Positions 11,827-19,806 of a stretch of DNA of 47,834 nt are shown here, piece by piece. The first letter of the stretch is position 1. Each line of letters begins with the position of its first letter. Source of the DNA: Candidatus Acidiferrales bacterium. GTDB taxonomy: Bacteria > Acidobacteriota > Terriglobia > Acidiferrales > UBA7541. Below the pieces are notes generated by a model. That model made no database searches. It saw only the letters and a list, made by a program, of their open reading frames with translations, and had not been told where the DNA came from. Both the position numbers and the translations under genes were made by a program. The stretch is taken from the NCBI GenBank assembly GCA_030037225.1, contig JASHRU010000427.1:1-47834 (forward strand), in the 5' to 3' direction.

Positions 11827-13188
11827 CTAGCGGATCAGCGAACCTACCTTTTCCATCTGGTGGGAAAATGCTCCCGGCTCGTAATACGAGGGATTTTCGA
11901 GCTGCTGGAAGAGCACGTTGATGGCTGCGCGTACGTCGGCGGCATCGCCTGCCTTCGCTTCCTTGCTGTACGCAATGTAAAGCGAGTCGAGCGCCATGGC
12001 CGCCTGCTCGCCGCACCGTTCGCCGGAGTAGGAAATCTTCTCCGCGTCGCCGGTGATTGCCAGCATCACGCGCTTGGCCATCGCCGGGTCGTAGCTCATC
12101 GTCTGGAGCTTCGCCCCAAACTGCTGCGCCACCGGAGCTGCCGCGCCCGCCGCCGCGACCACAGCCGAGGGGTCCGGATTCAACTTGTTCATTTCCGCCT
12201 GGACCTTTGCCACCTTCGCCGCTAAGTCCTGTGCCGCCGCAGGATCTACAGCCTCTGCCAGATGCAGGAACACGATGTAGCGCGAGGCTTGCCACGGCGG
12301 ATCGCCCGCGCGCCGTGCCGAATAGCCGTGCTCCTGCCGCCAACTTTGCGCCGCCGGACCGAGCGCATGATGGCAGGCGAAGCAGTCGAGTTCTGAATAT
12401 TCCGGCCAAACTTTCCCTTTCGCGCGCCAGGAAACCCGCTCGAGCTCGGCACGCAGCTGTTCGGCTTGGCCAGTCCCCCATTGCCTCATTCCCAGCATCG
12501 CGGCGTCCTCGGCCGGTTTCCCAGCCTCGCTTTCCCGGGGAACCTTCCAGTGGAGCGGCATCGCGGCCTGAAAAGAATCGAGTTCGAAGTACAGGTCCGG
12601 ATGCCCGCCCGCGATCATCTCGTGGTCCACAAACTGATCGGGAGTGCCCAGATGGCAGGTGAGGCATTTATCGGTCCGGTGGGTCAGGTCGCGCAGGTCC
12701 ACCATCCCCGCTGCTACTGACTGTTCATGCGTCCAACCCCGCGTCGTGTGTCCGCCCAGCCACCCTCCCGCCGGTCCGTGGCAGTTCTCGCAGGACACGC
12801 CTTCGCTCAGTTCAAATGTGCGTGCGCGTTTTTCCGCCGGCACCGAAAGCGAATGACAAACCAGACATTTCGGGGATTCTTCGGCCTTGGTGTTCAATTT
12901 GAGGATGCGCGCCATGCGCTCGCCCACTTCACCGGTCAGCGCCAGGTAGGCGCGGCTGTGCTTGTCCTTCACAACCCAGGTGCTGTATTCCGTTTGCAGG
13001 ATCCGGCTGTCTCCCCGCGGGCGGATGCTCCCGTGGCAGCTGGTGGCGCTGCAGGAACCGGGCCCAGAATACTGACCCATAGCTTCGGCAGGCATTGCCT
13101 TGGCAGGTGGACTTCCGCCCGGCCCCGCAAAGACTGCCGGGGCAAATAGCATCAGAGCTATGATTGTCGCGGGACGCAGGGGGCGCAC
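11827..13188 (-). CDS. Secreted multiheme cytochrome c, cytochrome c554-like
   Basis: Signal peptide (TIIALMLFAPAVFA); heme motifs CLVCH, CENCH, CLTCH, CFACH plus CSATSCH (CX4CH). Confidence 0.85.
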   Translation of the reverse strand: MRPLRPATIIALMLFAPAVFAGPGGSPPAKAMPAEAMGQYSGPGSCSATSCHGSIRPRGDSRILQTEYSTWVVKDKHSRAYLALTGEVGERMARILKLNTKAEESPKCLVCHSLSVPAEKRARTFELSEGVSCENCHGPAGGWLGGHTTRGWTHEQSVAAGMVDLRDLTHRTDKCLTCHLGTPDQFVDHEMIAGGHPDLYFELDSFQAAMPLHWKVPRESEAGKPAEDAAMLGMRQWGTGQAEQLRAELERVSWRAKGKVWPEYSELDCFACHHALGPAAQSWRQEHGYSARRAGDPPWQASRYIVFLHLAEAVDPAAAQDLAAKVAKVQAEMNKLNPDPSAVVAAAGAAAPVAQQFGAKLQTMSYDPAMAKRVMLAITGDAEKISYSGERCGEQAAMALDSLYIAYSKEAKAGDAADVRAAINVLFQQLENPSYYEPGAFSHQMEKVGSLIR

Positions 13189-13269
13189 TCGTTAGTTTCC
13201 GCTTCCTGATGCCGCGGCGCCCGGACTCGGCCCCCGGGCTGCAGCCACAACCGGCCTCAGGTGGTTGTG

Positions 13270-13298
13270 CTTATACCTCCTGCCCGACCGAGTGTCAA
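13270..13298 (-). promoter_or_regulatory. Candidate sigma70-type promoter for the c554-like cytochrome
   Basis: Minus strand TTGACA (13298-13293), 17-bp spacer, TATAAG (13275-13270); -35 matches consensus 6/6. Confidence 0.65.
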
Positions 13299-13333
13299 TG
13301 GCGGAACGGGCGGGGGTTGCGTTCAGCGTCCCC

Positions 13334-13380
13334 GTGAGAACAACCATCCACGACGCCGATGCGGACGATGCCGTTCTCAC
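13334..13380. promoter_or_regulatory. Inverted repeat between divergent promoters (possible operator)
   Basis: GTGAGAAC (13334-13341) and GTTCTCAC (13373-13380), perfect 8-bp arms, 31-bp spacer, lying between the two -35 boxes. Confidence 0.4.
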
Positions 13381-13403
13381 CAGAAACTCTCGCTCCATCC
13401 CTA

Positions 13404-13432
13404 TGGACATCCGGCGGGTGAATCGCTACTAT
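13404..13432 (+). promoter_or_regulatory. Candidate sigma70-type promoter for the nuoEF-like operon
   Basis: TGGACA (13404-13409), 17-bp spacer, TACTAT (13427-13432). Confidence 0.45.
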
Positions 13433-13515
13433 CCTCGCCCAGCGGGACCGCCAGGATTGATTGCACGAACGGCGGCTCGAGCCCGGCGAGTCCACAGGGC
13501 CCAAAGAGTGCGACG

Positions 13516-15240
13516 GTGATCTGGGACGATCTTCGCGCCATCCAAAGCCGGCATGGATACCTTCCGGCCGAGGAATTGCACGCACTCTCGCAGCATACGG
13601 GAACTCCGCTTTACCAGATCCACAGCGTCGCCAGCTTTTATCCCCATTTCCGCCTCGCGCCGCCGCCCAAAGCGGACGTGCGCGTTTGCATGGACATGTC
13701 TTGCAATCTCAACGGGGCCTGCGAGCTCCGCCAGGCCCTGGAGCGCCGCTACGCGGGCATGGGCCCCTCGGAAGTCACCGTTCGCGAGGTTTCCTGCCTG
13801 GGCCGTTGCGACCACGCTCCCGCGGTGACCGTCAACGACCAGATCTTCTCCTCAATGTCCGAGCCCACTGTGGACCTGCTGATTACCCGCGCCCTCGGCG
13901 GCGAGGCCTTGGAGGAACCGCATCCGCCCCATACCGAGGCTACCTGCAAGTCGGATCCGTATCCTCCTGACAAACGCTATGGTGCCCTGCGCTGGCTGCT
14001 CAAATCGAAAGACGTGGACGGCGTGCTCGCCTCGCTCAAAGCAGCCGACCTTCGCGGCATGGGTGGCGCCGGCTTCTCCACGGAGATGAAGTGGTCGCTC
14101 GTCCGCAGAATGGACTCGCCCGAGAAATACATTGTCTGCAACGCGGACGAAAGCGAGCCGGGGACCATCAAAGACCGCTTCATCATCCAGCACCTGGCCT
14201 ATCTCGTGGCCGAAGGGATGGCAATTGCCGGCATCTGTACCGGAGCGAAAAAAGGAATTTTTTATATTCGCCACGAGTACGGCCATCAAGAACACATCAT
14301 GAAGGAGGAGGTCGAACGCGCCTACCACCAGGGCTTGCTCGGTCAGAACATTCAGGGCTCGGGCATCGACTTCGACCTCGAAGTGTTCGTCAGCCCAGGC
14401 GGCTACATCTGCGGCGAGGAAAGCGCGCTCATTGAAGCCATCGAAGGCCACCGCGCGGAGCCGCGCAACAAGCCCCCCTTCCCCGGACAGGCCGGCTTGT
14501 GGCAAAAGCCAACCGTGGTAAACAACGTCGAGACCTTTGCCAACGTCCCACAAATTCTCGTCCGTGGCGTGGATTGGTTCAAATCCGCCGGCCTCGCGGG
14601 CACCAGCGGCCTCAAATTCGTCGGCATAAGCGGACACGTGGTCAAGCCCGGCGTGTTTGAAATTCCCATGGGCACCCCGGCTTCCGAAGTCATTTTCCGT
14701 CTCGCGGGGGGCATCCGCGGCGGCAAGAAGATGAAGGGCTTCGCTCCCTCCGGGCCCTCTTCCGGCTATTTGCCCGCCTCAATGGCCGACATCCGGCTCG
14801 ATTTCAAGACGCTCGCCGCGGCAGGTTCCATGCTCGGTTCCGGCGCCATGGTCATTTGCGACCAGGACACGTGCATGCTCGACATGGCGCTCAACTCCGT
14901 GGCCTTCTTCCGTAACGAGTCCTGCGGTAAGTGCGTTCCTTGCCGTGTCGGCTCCCAAAAAATGGTCGCGCTGCTCCACCGCTGGACTCAGGGCGGTCTT
15001 TCCGAGAAGCAATTCACCGCGGATCGCGGCCTCATTGACGAGCTCTCGAACGCCATGGGACTGGCATCCATCTGCGGACTAGGCCAGATTGTCCCGGCGC
15101 CCATCAACTCCGTTTTGAAATATTTTGAAGACGAAGTGAGAGAGCACGCGCTCCAGGGCACTTGCCCATCCGGCATTTGCCATCTGCCGGGAGCGCCTGC
15201 CAAGCGGGCCGCCAGTCAGCGGGTGGGGATCAATCCATGA
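13516..15240 (+). CDS. NuoE-NuoF fusion (NADH-binding flavoprotein with thioredoxin-like 2Fe-2S N-terminus)
   Basis: NuoE part: RAIQSRHGYLPAEEL...VASFYPHFRL...CMDMSC...CLGRC; NuoF part: CNADESEPGTIKDR, GGYICGEESALIEAIEG, ESCGKCVPCRVGSQK...SICGLGQ. GTG at 13516 is the only canonical start after the predicted + promoter; the ORF-track start at 13261 is probably over-extended. Confidence 0.85.
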   Translation: MIWDDLRAIQSRHGYLPAEELHALSQHTGTPLYQIHSVASFYPHFRLAPPPKADVRVCMDMSCNLNGACELRQALERRYAGMGPSEVTVREVSCLGRCDHAPAVTVNDQIFSSMSEPTVDLLITRALGGEALEEPHPPHTEATCKSDPYPPDKRYGALRWLLKSKDVDGVLASLKAADLRGMGGAGFSTEMKWSLVRRMDSPEKYIVCNADESEPGTIKDRFIIQHLAYLVAEGMAIAGICTGAKKGIFYIRHEYGHQEHIMKEEVERAYHQGLLGQNIQGSGIDFDLEVFVSPGGYICGEESALIEAIEGHRAEPRNKPPFPGQAGLWQKPTVVNNVETFANVPQILVRGVDWFKSAGLAGTSGLKFVGISGHVVKPGVFEIPMGTPASEVIFRLAGGIRGGKKMKGFAPSGPSSGYLPASMADIRLDFKTLAAAGSMLGSGAMVICDQDTCMLDMALNSVAFFRNESCGKCVPCRVGSQKMVALLHRWTQGGLSEKQFTADRGLIDELSNAMGLASICGLGQIVPAPINSVLKYFEDEVREHALQGTCPSGICHLPGAPAKRAASQRVGINP

Positions 15241-17408
15241 GCACCCTGTTCGGAACCTTTCTCGGCCCGATGGTGCAGCTCACCATCGATGGCAAAGAGG
15301 TTGCCGCGCCGGCCAGCGCCACCATCTTTGACGCCGCGCGCGCTCACGGCATCCCCATACCCACGCTCTGTCACATGCAGAACGAAACCCCGGTCGGAGT
15401 CTGCCGCCTGTGCGTGGTCGAGGCCGGCGGCCGCGTTCTCACTGCTTCCTGTGTCCGCCAGGTAGAAAACGGAATGAAGGTGGTCACCAATTCCGACCGC
15501 GTTTTGGCCGCTCGCCGTACCCTGCTCGAAATTCTCATGTCCGACCACCCCTCGCCCTGCGCCCGCGAGCGGCAATCGGGCGATTGCGAACTGGAGATGC
15601 AGGCCCGCAATCACGGCATCACCGAAATTCGCTATCCCAAACGCTATTTCACGCGCCCGAAGGACGATTCCTCGCTGGCCATCGCTGTGGACCACGAGGC
15701 CTGCATCCTTTGCGACCGCTGCATCCGCGGCTGCAACGAAATCCGCCAGAACCTCGTGCTCGGCCGCATGGGCAAAGGCGCGGGCGCGGGCGTGGCTTTT
15801 GACCTCAATACTCCCATGGGCGAGTCCTCCTGCATCTCCTGCGGTGAATGCATGGTGAGCTGCCCCACCGGCGCGCTCACCAACAAGCGCATCGCTGGAA
15901 CCGAGCTGCCCATTCCCGCCGGCGCGGTTCCCGCTGAACCGGAAGACCTGCTCGAGCTCCCCGTCTTTAAGGGCGTATCCGGTACCTTCCTCGAGATGAA
16001 TAAGGGGGCCATCGTCAAACGCAGCTTCCATCCGGGCGACGTAATCTGCCGCGAGGGCGATTTCGGATCTACCGCTTTCTACATCGCAGAAGGCAAGGCC
16101 GCCGTCTCGATTTCCACCCCCATGGCGCACGTGAAGACACACGGCGGCGCCGGCGGATGGTTCAGCCGCCTCACTTCGAGCCTCATCGGCCGCGACTCCG
16201 ACGCGCGCGAGGAAGAGACCTCGCAAGGGTACATTCCCATCGACGCCTCGGTCGACCTCGCGTACAGCAACCCCGTCGCCGAGTTGGGGCCCGGCGATCT
16301 GTTCGGCGAAATGACCTGCATGAGCTTTTATCCGCGTTCCGCGACGGTCAAGGCCCTCACCGATTGCACCATGTACGAGATGTTGCGGAACGTGCTCGAT
16401 ATCCTGCTCAAGAACAAGTCCTTCCGCGCACGCCTTGGCAAGGAGTACAAGCGCCGCGCGCTCGAAACACATCTTCGCGGCGTGCCCATGTTCTCTGAGC
16501 TCTCCCCCGACTTCGTCGAGCGGCTGATGGACAACGTCAAGCTTATCCGCCTCTCTCCCGGGCAGGTGATTTGCAAGCAAGGCGAGCCGGCCGACAGCTT
16601 CTATCTTGTCCGCATCGGGTTCGTAAAGGTCACGGAAACGTATCCCGGCGGCGAGCTCGTCATCGCTTATCTTTCCCGCGGTGACTCTTTCGGCGAAATC
16701 GGACTTCTTGGAGCGGGCGCCCGCACGGCCACCTGCACGGCGCTCGACCACGTCGAACTGGTCAAGATCTCGGCCGATGACTTCAACGCAATGGTCGATC
16801 AGTTCCCCGGCGTGCGCCGCGGTCTCCAGGCCCTTGCGGATGAGCGCCAGCGGCAGAACGCCGAACGCATGGCCGCCCTGGGAACCATCTCACTCGATTC
16901 CTTCCTCGGCCAGGGCTTGATGGAAGCCCAGAGTTTGCTCGTCCTCGATTTGGCGCGCTGCACCCGTTGCGACGCGTGCGTCCGCGCGTGCGCCGACGCT
17001 CACGACGGCATCACCCGCCTGGTTCGCGAAGGACAGCGTTTCGACCGCTACCTCGTGGCCACATCCTGCCGCCATTGCAAGGATCCGCTCTGCATGGTCG
17101 GCTGCCCGGTCGGCTCCATACGCCGCCGCAATTCACTCGAAGTCATCATCGAGGATTGGTGCATCGGCTGCGGCCTCTGCGCCCGCAATTGCCCTTACGG
17201 CAACATCAACTTGCATCCCTTCCAGGTGATGGCAGACGACCCCGACAATCCCGGCCGCCGCATCGCCATGGTCAAGCAGAAAGCGACTTCGTGCGACCTA
17301 TGCACCGAGCATGCCGAGCCCAGTTGCGTTTATGCCTGCCCCCACGACGCCGCGCATCGCGTGGACCCGCGCAAGTTCTTCTCCGAACTCCTGGGAACAA
17401 AAGTGTGA
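15237..17408 (+). CDS. Fusion protein: NuoG/HoxU-like 2Fe-2S plus 2x4Fe-4S, two cyclic-nucleotide-binding domains, DmsB-like 4x4Fe-4S domain
   Basis: N-term PTLCHMQNETPVGVCRLCVVEAGGRVLTASC; CILCDRCIRGC and CISCGECMVSCP; two CNB phosphate-binding cassettes (FGEMTCMSFYPRSAT, FGEIGLLGAGARTAT); C-term CTRCDACVRAC, CRHCKDPLCMVGCP, CIGCGLCARNCPYG, CDLCTEHAEPSCVYACP. ATGA overlap with nuoEF. Confidence 0.88.
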   Translation: MSTLFGTFLGPMVQLTIDGKEVAAPASATIFDAARAHGIPIPTLCHMQNETPVGVCRLCVVEAGGRVLTASCVRQVENGMKVVTNSDRVLAARRTLLEILMSDHPSPCARERQSGDCELEMQARNHGITEIRYPKRYFTRPKDDSSLAIAVDHEACILCDRCIRGCNEIRQNLVLGRMGKGAGAGVAFDLNTPMGESSCISCGECMVSCPTGALTNKRIAGTELPIPAGAVPAEPEDLLELPVFKGVSGTFLEMNKGAIVKRSFHPGDVICREGDFGSTAFYIAEGKAAVSISTPMAHVKTHGGAGGWFSRLTSSLIGRDSDAREEETSQGYIPIDASVDLAYSNPVAELGPGDLFGEMTCMSFYPRSATVKALTDCTMYEMLRNVLDILLKNKSFRARLGKEYKRRALETHLRGVPMFSELSPDFVERLMDNVKLIRLSPGQVICKQGEPADSFYLVRIGFVKVTETYPGGELVIAYLSRGDSFGEIGLLGAGARTATCTALDHVELVKISADDFNAMVDQFPGVRRGLQALADERQRQNAERMAALGTISLDSFLGQGLMEAQSLLVLDLARCTRCDACVRACADAHDGITRLVREGQRFDRYLVATSCRHCKDPLCMVGCPVGSIRRRNSLEVIIEDWCIGCGLCARNCPYGNINLHPFQVMADDPDNPGRRIAMVKQKATSCDLCTEHAEPSCVYACPHDAAHRVDPRKFFSELLGTKV

Positions 17409-18411: not shown

Positions 18412-19806
18412 GTGCCGCGTGTCCGCACAACCAAGGCTCTCGCGCAGCGCATTGATCTGAACTACTTCAAGCGGCCTATCCCTCTTCGCCGCTGGCGCTT
18501 CTGGCTCTGCCTGCTCATCCCCCTCGGCTGTTTCCTATGGATCGGCTGGAAGCTGGCAGGCCGCGACTTCCAGCCCTATTCCAGCGGGCCGCTTTCCGCC
18601 GGCCACGTCCTGCTCACTCGCGACTGCACCACCTGCCATGTGCCCGAAAAAAACGCCGTGTTCACCGAGCACGCCAGCGATCAGGCCTGTAAGAACTGCC
18701 ACGACGGCCCCATTCATCAGCTCGCTCAGGCGCGCGAGCCCGAGTGCGGCTCCTGCCACGTCGAGCACCGCGGTGGCGCTCGCCTGATCGCGACAAGCAA
18801 TCAGAGCTGTGCCCAATGCCACGCCAATCTGGAGACCAAGCCCGGTTCCTCCACCAAGTACATCAAGACGATTTCCAGTTTCAACACCGACCACCCCGAA
18901 ATGGCTGTTTTCCGCGGCGCCAATCCTCGGGATCCCGTCACCATCCGCGTCAATCACTTTGTCCACATGAAGAAGAACCTGCTGGGCCCGCACGGTTCCG
19001 TCCAACTGGAATGCAAGGATTGCCACCGCCAGCCAGCCTCGCGCGAGCCCTGGCTTTTCGGCTCCGCTGAAGCCCTGCCGGTCTCCGCACCTGTGGCCAC
19101 CCCTGCAGCCGGGATGAAGGCCGACCTATATGCCCCCGATCCCGGGCTCGCGCTCATGTCCATGCCGAAATTCGCCGAATCCTGCTCCGCCTGCCACCTG
19201 CTCCAGTTCGACAAGCGCTTTTCCGAGCAGGTTCCGCACGATAAGCCGGATGTGGTCCACGCCTTTGTCGTAAAGAAGTTCGAGGCCTATATTGCCGCGC
19301 ATCCCGCCGAATTGCGTGAGCAGCCGGAGGAAGAGCGTCGCCTGCCGAACCGTCCCGCTCCACCCGCAGCGCGCGTCGTCACTCCCGCCCAATGGGTAGC
19401 CGAGCGCACGAAAGAGGCTGAGACGCTCCTTTGGGGAAAGACGTGCCGCCAGTGCCACTCCATCACCATCACGGAGGGCGCGCCGCTGCCGAAGGTTGCA
19501 GACGCGAACTACACCCTGCACTGGCTCCCGCACGCCCGCTTCGACCACGATGCGCATCGGGGATTCGCCTGCGCGAGCTGCCATCCCAACGCGCTCACCA
19601 GCCAGGACTCGGCCGAACTCCTGCTTCCCAAGCTCGCTACATGCAAGGACTGCCATGCGCCTGGCCCGTCTCACGTCGAAGCGCGCTGCTTCGAGTGCCA
19701 CGCGTATCACGATTGGTCAAAGCGCAAGGGGATCACGCCGACGTTTGTTCCACGGGCTCTGCGCGCGCAGGCTGTGGATCTCATCCCGAAGCCCGCCGGC
19801 CAGTAG
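18412..19806 (+). CDS. Membrane-anchored decaheme cytochrome c (c3/c7-like)
   Basis: N-terminal TM (FWLCLLIPLGCFLWIGWKLAG) and ten CxxCH: CTTCH, CKNCH, CGSCH, CAQCH, CKDCH, CSACH, CRQCH, CASCH, CKDCH, CFECH. GTG start preceded by GGAGGAG. Confidence 0.88.
   Translation: MPRVRTTKALAQRIDLNYFKRPIPLRRWRFWLCLLIPLGCFLWIGWKLAGRDFQPYSSGPLSAGHVLLTRDCTTCHVPEKNAVFTEHASDQACKNCHDGPIHQLAQAREPECGSCHVEHRGGARLIATSNQSCAQCHANLETKPGSSTKYIKTISSFNTDHPEMAVFRGANPRDPVTIRVNHFVHMKKNLLGPHGSVQLECKDCHRQPASREPWLFGSAEALPVSAPVATPAAGMKADLYAPDPGLALMSMPKFAESCSACHLLQFDKRFSEQVPHDKPDVVHAFVVKKFEAYIAAHPAELREQPEEERRLPNRPAPPAARVVTPAQWVAERTKEAETLLWGKTCRQCHSITITEGAPLPKVADANYTLHWLPHARFDHDAHRGFACASCHPNALTSQDSAELLLPKLATCKDCHAPGPSHVEARCFECHAYHDWSKRKGITPTFVPRALRAQAVDLIPKPAGQ

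Follow-up and report, generated by a model that had tools for sequence, protein, structure and literature searches.

The stretch analysed here (the window) covers the 47,834 bp of contig JASHRU010000427.1 from Candidatus Acidiferrales bacterium (Acidobacteriota; assembly GCA_030037225.1), and it carries a gene for a 723-residue protein in which two tandem cyclic-nucleotide-binding (CNB) domains lie between two iron-sulphur (Fe-S) modules. The open reading frame (ORF) runs without interruption, and both the translation and the Pfam matches bear out the order given in the initial annotation, with a [2Fe-2S] site, two [4Fe-4S] sites, two CNB domains and four further [4Fe-4S] sites in a single polypeptide. 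The ATG of this fusion gene overlaps the stop codon of the preceding gene (ATGA at 15237-15240); translation may also begin at 15270, as the alignment of most homologues starts at residue 12-13. The coordinates of the fusion, its modules and its neighbours are collected in Table 1.

Table 1. The fusion gene, its modules and the neighbouring genes of the cassette, in positions of the window.
Feature	Position	Strand	Evidence
Fusion protein: HydA/NuoG-type Fe-S module, CNB, CNB, four-cluster ferredoxin	15237-17408	+	ORF, Pfam, 68 full-length homologues
N-terminal Fe-S module, residues 12-220	15270-15896	+	Fer2_4, NADH-G_4Fe-4S_3, Fer4; PDB matches HydA1, formate dehydrogenase alpha
[2Fe-2S] ligands Cys45, Cys56, Cys59, Cys72	15369-15452	+	Conserved in 68/68 full-length relatives
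Altered N5/FS4C site: His104, Cys108, Glu111 replacing Cys, Cys117	15546-15587	+	Position 111 in 68 relatives
Two [4Fe-4S] sites, Cys156-209	15702-15863	+	Eight Cys, each 68/68
CNB1, with insertion of ~50 residues at 16125-16280 and cassette at 16302-16346	15957-16481	+	PF00027; AlphaFold2 model
CNB2, with cassette at 16689-16733	16482-16871	+	PF00027
Four-cluster [4Fe-4S] ferredoxin module, 16 Cys	16938-17381	+	Cys kept in 67-68/68 long and 11/11 short forms
NuoE-NuoF fusion, NADH/FMN-binding input subunit	13261-15240	+	2Fe-2S_thioredx, Complex1_51K, NADH_4Fe-4S
Membrane protein, four invariant His, soluble domain of ~140 residues	17415-18344	+	Alignment, structure model, weak b561-type matches in relatives
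Membrane-anchored decahaem cytochrome c, 10 CXXCH	18412-19806	+	Cytochrome_C7; 71/72 homologues have 10 CXXCH
c554-like cytochrome, 4 CXXCH, divergent	11827-13188	-	Cytochrome_C554; 66/68 homologues have 4 CXXCH

Homologue searches in related genomes and in a set holding one genome per species revealed 68 distinct full-length homologues, mainly in Acidobacteriota and also in Planctomycetota, one of them in an isolate (Granulicella aggregans M8UP14), and the cluster cysteines are kept in this family almost without exception. Two of the loci, titled Rhodanobacteraceae (L106) and Betaproteobacteria (L116), probably come from mislabelled metagenome bins, since the tree places their genes within clades of Acidobacteriota. 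The initial annotation had warned that a frameshift or an assembly error might have joined separate genes. We found no point in favour of such an artefact, which is excluded by the recurrence of the full-length protein in independent genomes, the isolate included, and to which we give practically no credence. Plasmid and phage collections returned matches to the N-terminal module only; in the phage collection, these were in records MT837150.1, OR846614.1, and MT835590.1, which may be contaminated with bacterial DNA. Full-text searches of an open-access library returned no paper that describes the fusion protein, which does not prove that none exists. The single parts are of known kinds, and what is new is their arrangement, in which a tandem CNB pair separates the electron-transfer modules of a proposed NADH-driven conduit.

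The CNB region matched PF00027 (cNMP_binding) with an E-value of 5.5e-40 and 135.7 bits, against a gathering threshold of 27.5. The match was divided into three stretches because an insertion at about residues 297-348 splits CNB1, in agreement with the insertion of some 50 residues already reported there. The two phosphate-binding cassettes lie exactly where they had been placed: FGEMTCMSFYPRSAT in CNB1, with Glu358 at 16308-16310 and Arg367 at 16335-16337, and FGEIGLLGAGARTAT in CNB2, with Glu487 at 16695-16697 and Arg496 at 16722-16724. That both cassettes keep the Glu and the Arg holds far beyond the window copy, as Glu358 and Arg367 are present in 68 of the 68 full-length relatives and Glu487 and Arg496 in 67 of them. 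In addition, the invariant positions of the CNB region are most concentrated in the FGEMTC...PRSAT block, as seen in an alignment of 36 full-length rows with a mean identity of 63%. A Foldseek search with the AlphaFold2 model of the fusion gave as best PDB matches the tandem CNBs of cyclic GMP-bound PKG I beta and of PKA regulatory subunits. The fusion shares with these proteins the tandem fold and the cassette residues, but it has no kinase, its CNBs are placed between Fe-S modules and its CNB1 bears the additional insertion. Judged from these features and from the recurrent genomic linkage to predicted adenylate cyclases described below, the pair is likely to bind a cyclic nucleotide, with cyclic AMP (cAMP) as the most likely ligand.

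Two further cysteines that are not cluster ligands were found in or beside the cassettes, Cys361 (16317-16319; 68/68) and Cys500 (16734-16736; 66/68), and these are possibly redox-sensitive. Other CNB fusions are encoded in the same genome, one with a thioredoxin-reductase-like part (L140, contig C214) and the other with a SulP/STAS-like transporter (L139, contig C74), the parts being assigned by eye. The former resembles the fusion of the window in joining a CNB and a redox enzyme in one chain, but it is a flavin enzyme with a single CNB and no Fe-S chain.

Analysis of the N-terminal module with Pfam assigned Fer2_4 to residues 12-86 and Fer4 families to residues ~150-217, with a match to NADH-G_4Fe-4S_3 at residues 93-132 that, at 26.3 bits, is slightly below the 27-bit cut-off. 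The complete ligand set of the HoxU/HydA type, for one [2Fe-2S] and two [4Fe-4S] clusters, is present, and each of its 12 cysteines is found in 68 of 68 relatives. Between these two groups of ligands sits a His-Cys site of the N5/FS4C type, overlooked in the initial annotation, in which the Cys expected at position 111 is replaced by Gln (59 relatives), Glu (6), His (2) or Ser (1) and is retained in none; the window copy has Glu. This altered site may bind a cluster of an unusual kind or no cluster at all. In contrast, the genuine NuoG of the same genome retains the N5 pattern HxxxCxxCxxxxxC with all four ligands. The description of the module as NuoG-like is therefore right at the superfamily level only: the NuoG equivalog TIGR01973 gave 120 bits against a cut-off of 470, Pfam found no Molybdopterin match in the fusion that would correspond to the C-terminal molybdopterin-fold domain of NuoG, and higher scores were obtained for residues 13-220 with the NCBIfam models of the FeFe-hydrogenase A6 HydA (201 bits; cut-off 765) and HoxU (181 bits; cut-off 333). 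These are the best profiles for the module, although its scores are far under their cut-offs, and the fusion also differs from group A6 HydA and the bidirectional hydrogenase HoxU in lacking an H-cluster domain and in its altered FS4C-type site. A role of the fusion gene as part of complex I was rejected, as a separate canonical NuoG is present in this genome and in 41 of the 45 cassette genomes tested.

The module also resembles the alpha subunit of NAD-dependent formate dehydrogenases (FdsA, MeFDH1), which has the same N-terminal [2Fe-2S] and two [4Fe-4S] sites (E about 1e-38 with 7vw6_A and 6tg9_A) and works with a fused NuoE-NuoF partner; the MeFDH1 beta subunit (7e5z_B) aligns end to end with the NuoE-NuoF fusion (NuoEF) of the window. 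However, the protein of the window has no molybdenum/tungsten catalytic domain, whose place is occupied by the CNB-CNB-ferredoxin part. The nearest N-terminal modules outside the family belong to proteins from the same phylum that resemble formate dehydrogenases (55-59% identity), and the formate dehydrogenase-like protein L052, which has a Molybdopterin domain, lacks the same N5-type Cys. On these grounds, the N-terminal module and NuoEF probably derive from a formate dehydrogenase-type NADH module in which the catalytic domain was replaced, a descent suggested by the sequence comparison.

At the other end of the protein, Pfam placed four Fer4 sites at residues 568-715. The earlier label of this module as DmsB-like stands as far as the 16-Cys pattern of four [4Fe-4S] sites is concerned, which is shared with the four-cluster subunits of the DmsB/HydN type, but not at the level of the family, as the scores for HydN (51 bits; cut-off 260) and for the DmsB equivalog TIGR02951 (48.4 bits; cut-off 214.1) are far too low and the module is part of a larger cytoplasmic fusion.

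The genes around the fusion provide candidate partners at both ends of the chain. The upstream NuoEF carries the domains of an NADH input module (Complex1_51K, 139.7 bits; 2Fe-2S_thioredx, 93.3 bits); its homologues align only from about residue 86, and its true start is probably near 13500, judging from that alignment. In the membrane protein encoded downstream, His81, His95, His288 and His302 are invariant among 42 sequences and form two pairs with spacings of 14 and 14, as in di-haem b cytochromes. Its structure model reached a predicted local distance difference test (pLDDT) score of 88.8. No Pfam family was assigned to the window copy and a fold search gave no PDB match below E 0.001, with b561 appearing weakly, and some of its relatives match cytochrome b561, Ni_hydr_CYTB and DUF4405, all weakly. 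The loop between transmembrane segments 2 and 3 has five positive and zero negative charges, so that by the positive-inside rule the soluble stretch of ~140 residues would be cytoplasmic and one His pair would lie near each membrane face. The protein is a predicted di-haem cytochrome b, with two b haems.

The order of this cassette, with the c554-like gene divergent from a series of NuoEF, fusion, membrane protein and decahaem cytochrome c, was found in almost every full-length locus of Acidobacteriota for which sufficient flanking sequence was available. In the Planctomycetota loci L107 and L109, NuoEF and the fusion are present and the membrane gene is not adjacent. In addition, short forms of the protein were detected that begin at the CNB pair; these have no adjoining NuoEF gene, keep the membrane protein and, in most cases, both cytochromes. 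At a given locus, the N-terminal module and the NuoEF gene either both occur or are both missing, and the gene content of the short forms points to a core made of the CNB-CNB-ferredoxin part and the membrane subunit, to which NuoEF and the N-terminal module constitute an input that moves as a unit. In a tree of the shared region, two changes are needed to account for the long and the short forms.

Some copies are damaged. A common in-frame deletion joins the fusion, at residue ~304, to the decahaem protein in two related Acidiferrum-type genomes (L124, 8974-10785; L131, 9062-10510), where the cassette looks decayed, further so in L131. The Planctomycetota short form L128 (8416-9888) has its ORF split by a frameshift, and its N-terminal stretch is FHA-like by eye, with no confirmation from Pfam.

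A cyclase gene recurred in the flanks of related loci. The positions of adenylate cyclases relative to the fusion were therefore analysed through whole-genome PF00211 matches in 60 genomes, with distances entered by hand from tables. A predicted cyclase was detected within 12.5 kb of the fusion in 25 of the 60 genomes, where 0.85 were expected, and of the 23 genomes in which just one cyclase was detected, 12 had it linked to the fusion. For NuoG as control gene, compared by eye, the corresponding linkage was 0/41. Among further Planctomycetota genomes, a cyclase was linked in 2 of 16 (about 0.3 expected), one of them at 0.8 kb. The linked cyclases belong to about five types in differing relative positions, including two with CHASE2, one FHA-GAF, one found in L040, L091, and L093, and one from Planctomycetota. 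Most of the linked class III enzymes retain the Lys and the Thr/Ser by which adenylate-specific cyclases differ from guanylate-specific ones. Finally, in six genomes of the clade nearest to the window (G355-G357, G359, G360 and G363), the contig of the cassette also carries a class III cyclase, at a distance of 64-80 kb, which is a conserved but looser linkage.

Domain order, cluster ligands, intact nucleotide pockets, operon and cyclase linkage are the features that the sequence supports, and from them we infer cAMP as the ligand, the direction of electron flow, the haem positions and the gating. Electrons from NADH would enter through the flavin mononucleotide and Fe-S centres of NuoEF, pass to the N-terminal module, jump to the C-terminal four-cluster module and from there reach the two b haems of the membrane subunit and then, in the periplasm, the decahaem and c554-like cytochromes. 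As neither CNB domain has a redox cofactor, electrons can pass only if the two Fe-S modules are in contact, and nucleotide binding in the CNB pair would shift them together or apart, as a clutch. We lean, with modest confidence, towards a reading in which NADH drives electrons through a transmembrane conduit, the fusion is its central relay, and a cyclic nucleotide, most likely cAMP, sets the throughput. Direct allosteric control of electron flow by the CNB domains, as proposed in the initial annotation, is plausible on the sequence and is our preferred reading. The more specific version, that cAMP opens or closes the contact between the Fe-S modules and so switches NADH-driven electron export to the periplasmic multihaem cytochromes without transcription, is put forward tentatively, as a possibility that may well prove wrong.

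Several observations weigh against this interpretation. The distance of 12.5 kb was picked after the first cyclases had been seen, and the raw P (about 2e-31) overstates the linkage because the 60 genomes are phylogenetically related; both caveats remain, although chance proximity of the cyclases is unlikely given the NuoG control. In the clade of the window itself, no cyclase lies within 12.5 kb, the 47.8-kb contig contains no class III cyclase (the source genome has four matches, none of them on it), and the short-form genomes checked showed no cyclase linkage. Furthermore, the distant short forms L048-L051 are without the CNB1 Arg and 4 of 11 short forms without the CNB2 Arg, so that loss of an intact pocket need not entail loss of the CNB pair. 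The AlphaFold2 model of the whole fusion has a pLDDT of 74, a moderate confidence that does not fix the geometry between domains.

CNB folds that bind no nucleotide are common, as in FNR-type proteins and EAG channels, and the pair could be a structural or dimerisation element, or the binder of another ligand, with electron transfer not regulated by cyclic nucleotides. The absence of the pocket Arg in the distant short forms would fit such a role, and a CRP/FNR-type CNB domain is present in the shell proteins of family 2b encapsulins (PMC8049743). We consider it rather unlikely, however, given that the Glu and Arg of both pockets are kept in 67-68 of the 68 full-length forms with a Glu-to-Arg spacing of 9, and given the recurrent linkage to adenylate cyclases of several types. 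The spacing in PKA is also 9.

CNB domains commonly regulate protein-protein contacts, as in the PKA R subunit, and the pair might instead bind cAMP to control assembly, membrane docking or stability, or the fusion might report the redox state to cAMP signalling. The pair adjoins the module that probably docks on the membrane protein, and, as it is kept where the N-terminal module is absent, its first role need not have been gating between modules. Nevertheless, in all full-length forms it stands exactly between the two Fe-S modules and there is no separate output domain, and this alternative appears unlikely to us. Improbable to a similar degree is a chain that runs in reverse, from periplasmic cytochromes or quinol to NAD+, or one in which menaquinone is reduced by the b-type subunit. 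Quinone sites are frequent in di-haem b subunits, and, as 41 of 45 cassette genomes also have the NuoG of complex I, an additional NADH oxidase should have a function of its own; however, the conserved decahaem gene downstream of the b subunit favours a route through the membrane, and thermodynamics favour the passage from NADH to haem c.

In bacteria, what is known of cAMP concerns mainly the control of transcription through CRP-type proteins. The cassette described here encodes a conserved redox complex in which a tandem sensor is intact between modules, and it is found repeatedly near adenylate cyclases in two phyla, Acidobacteriota and Planctomycetota. If the preferred reading of nucleotide-gated electron flow is true, the fusion would offer a natural blueprint for an electron wire switched by a ligand, and it would tie respiratory electron flow directly, at the post-translational level, to a second messenger in soil bacteria that are abundant and poorly understood.

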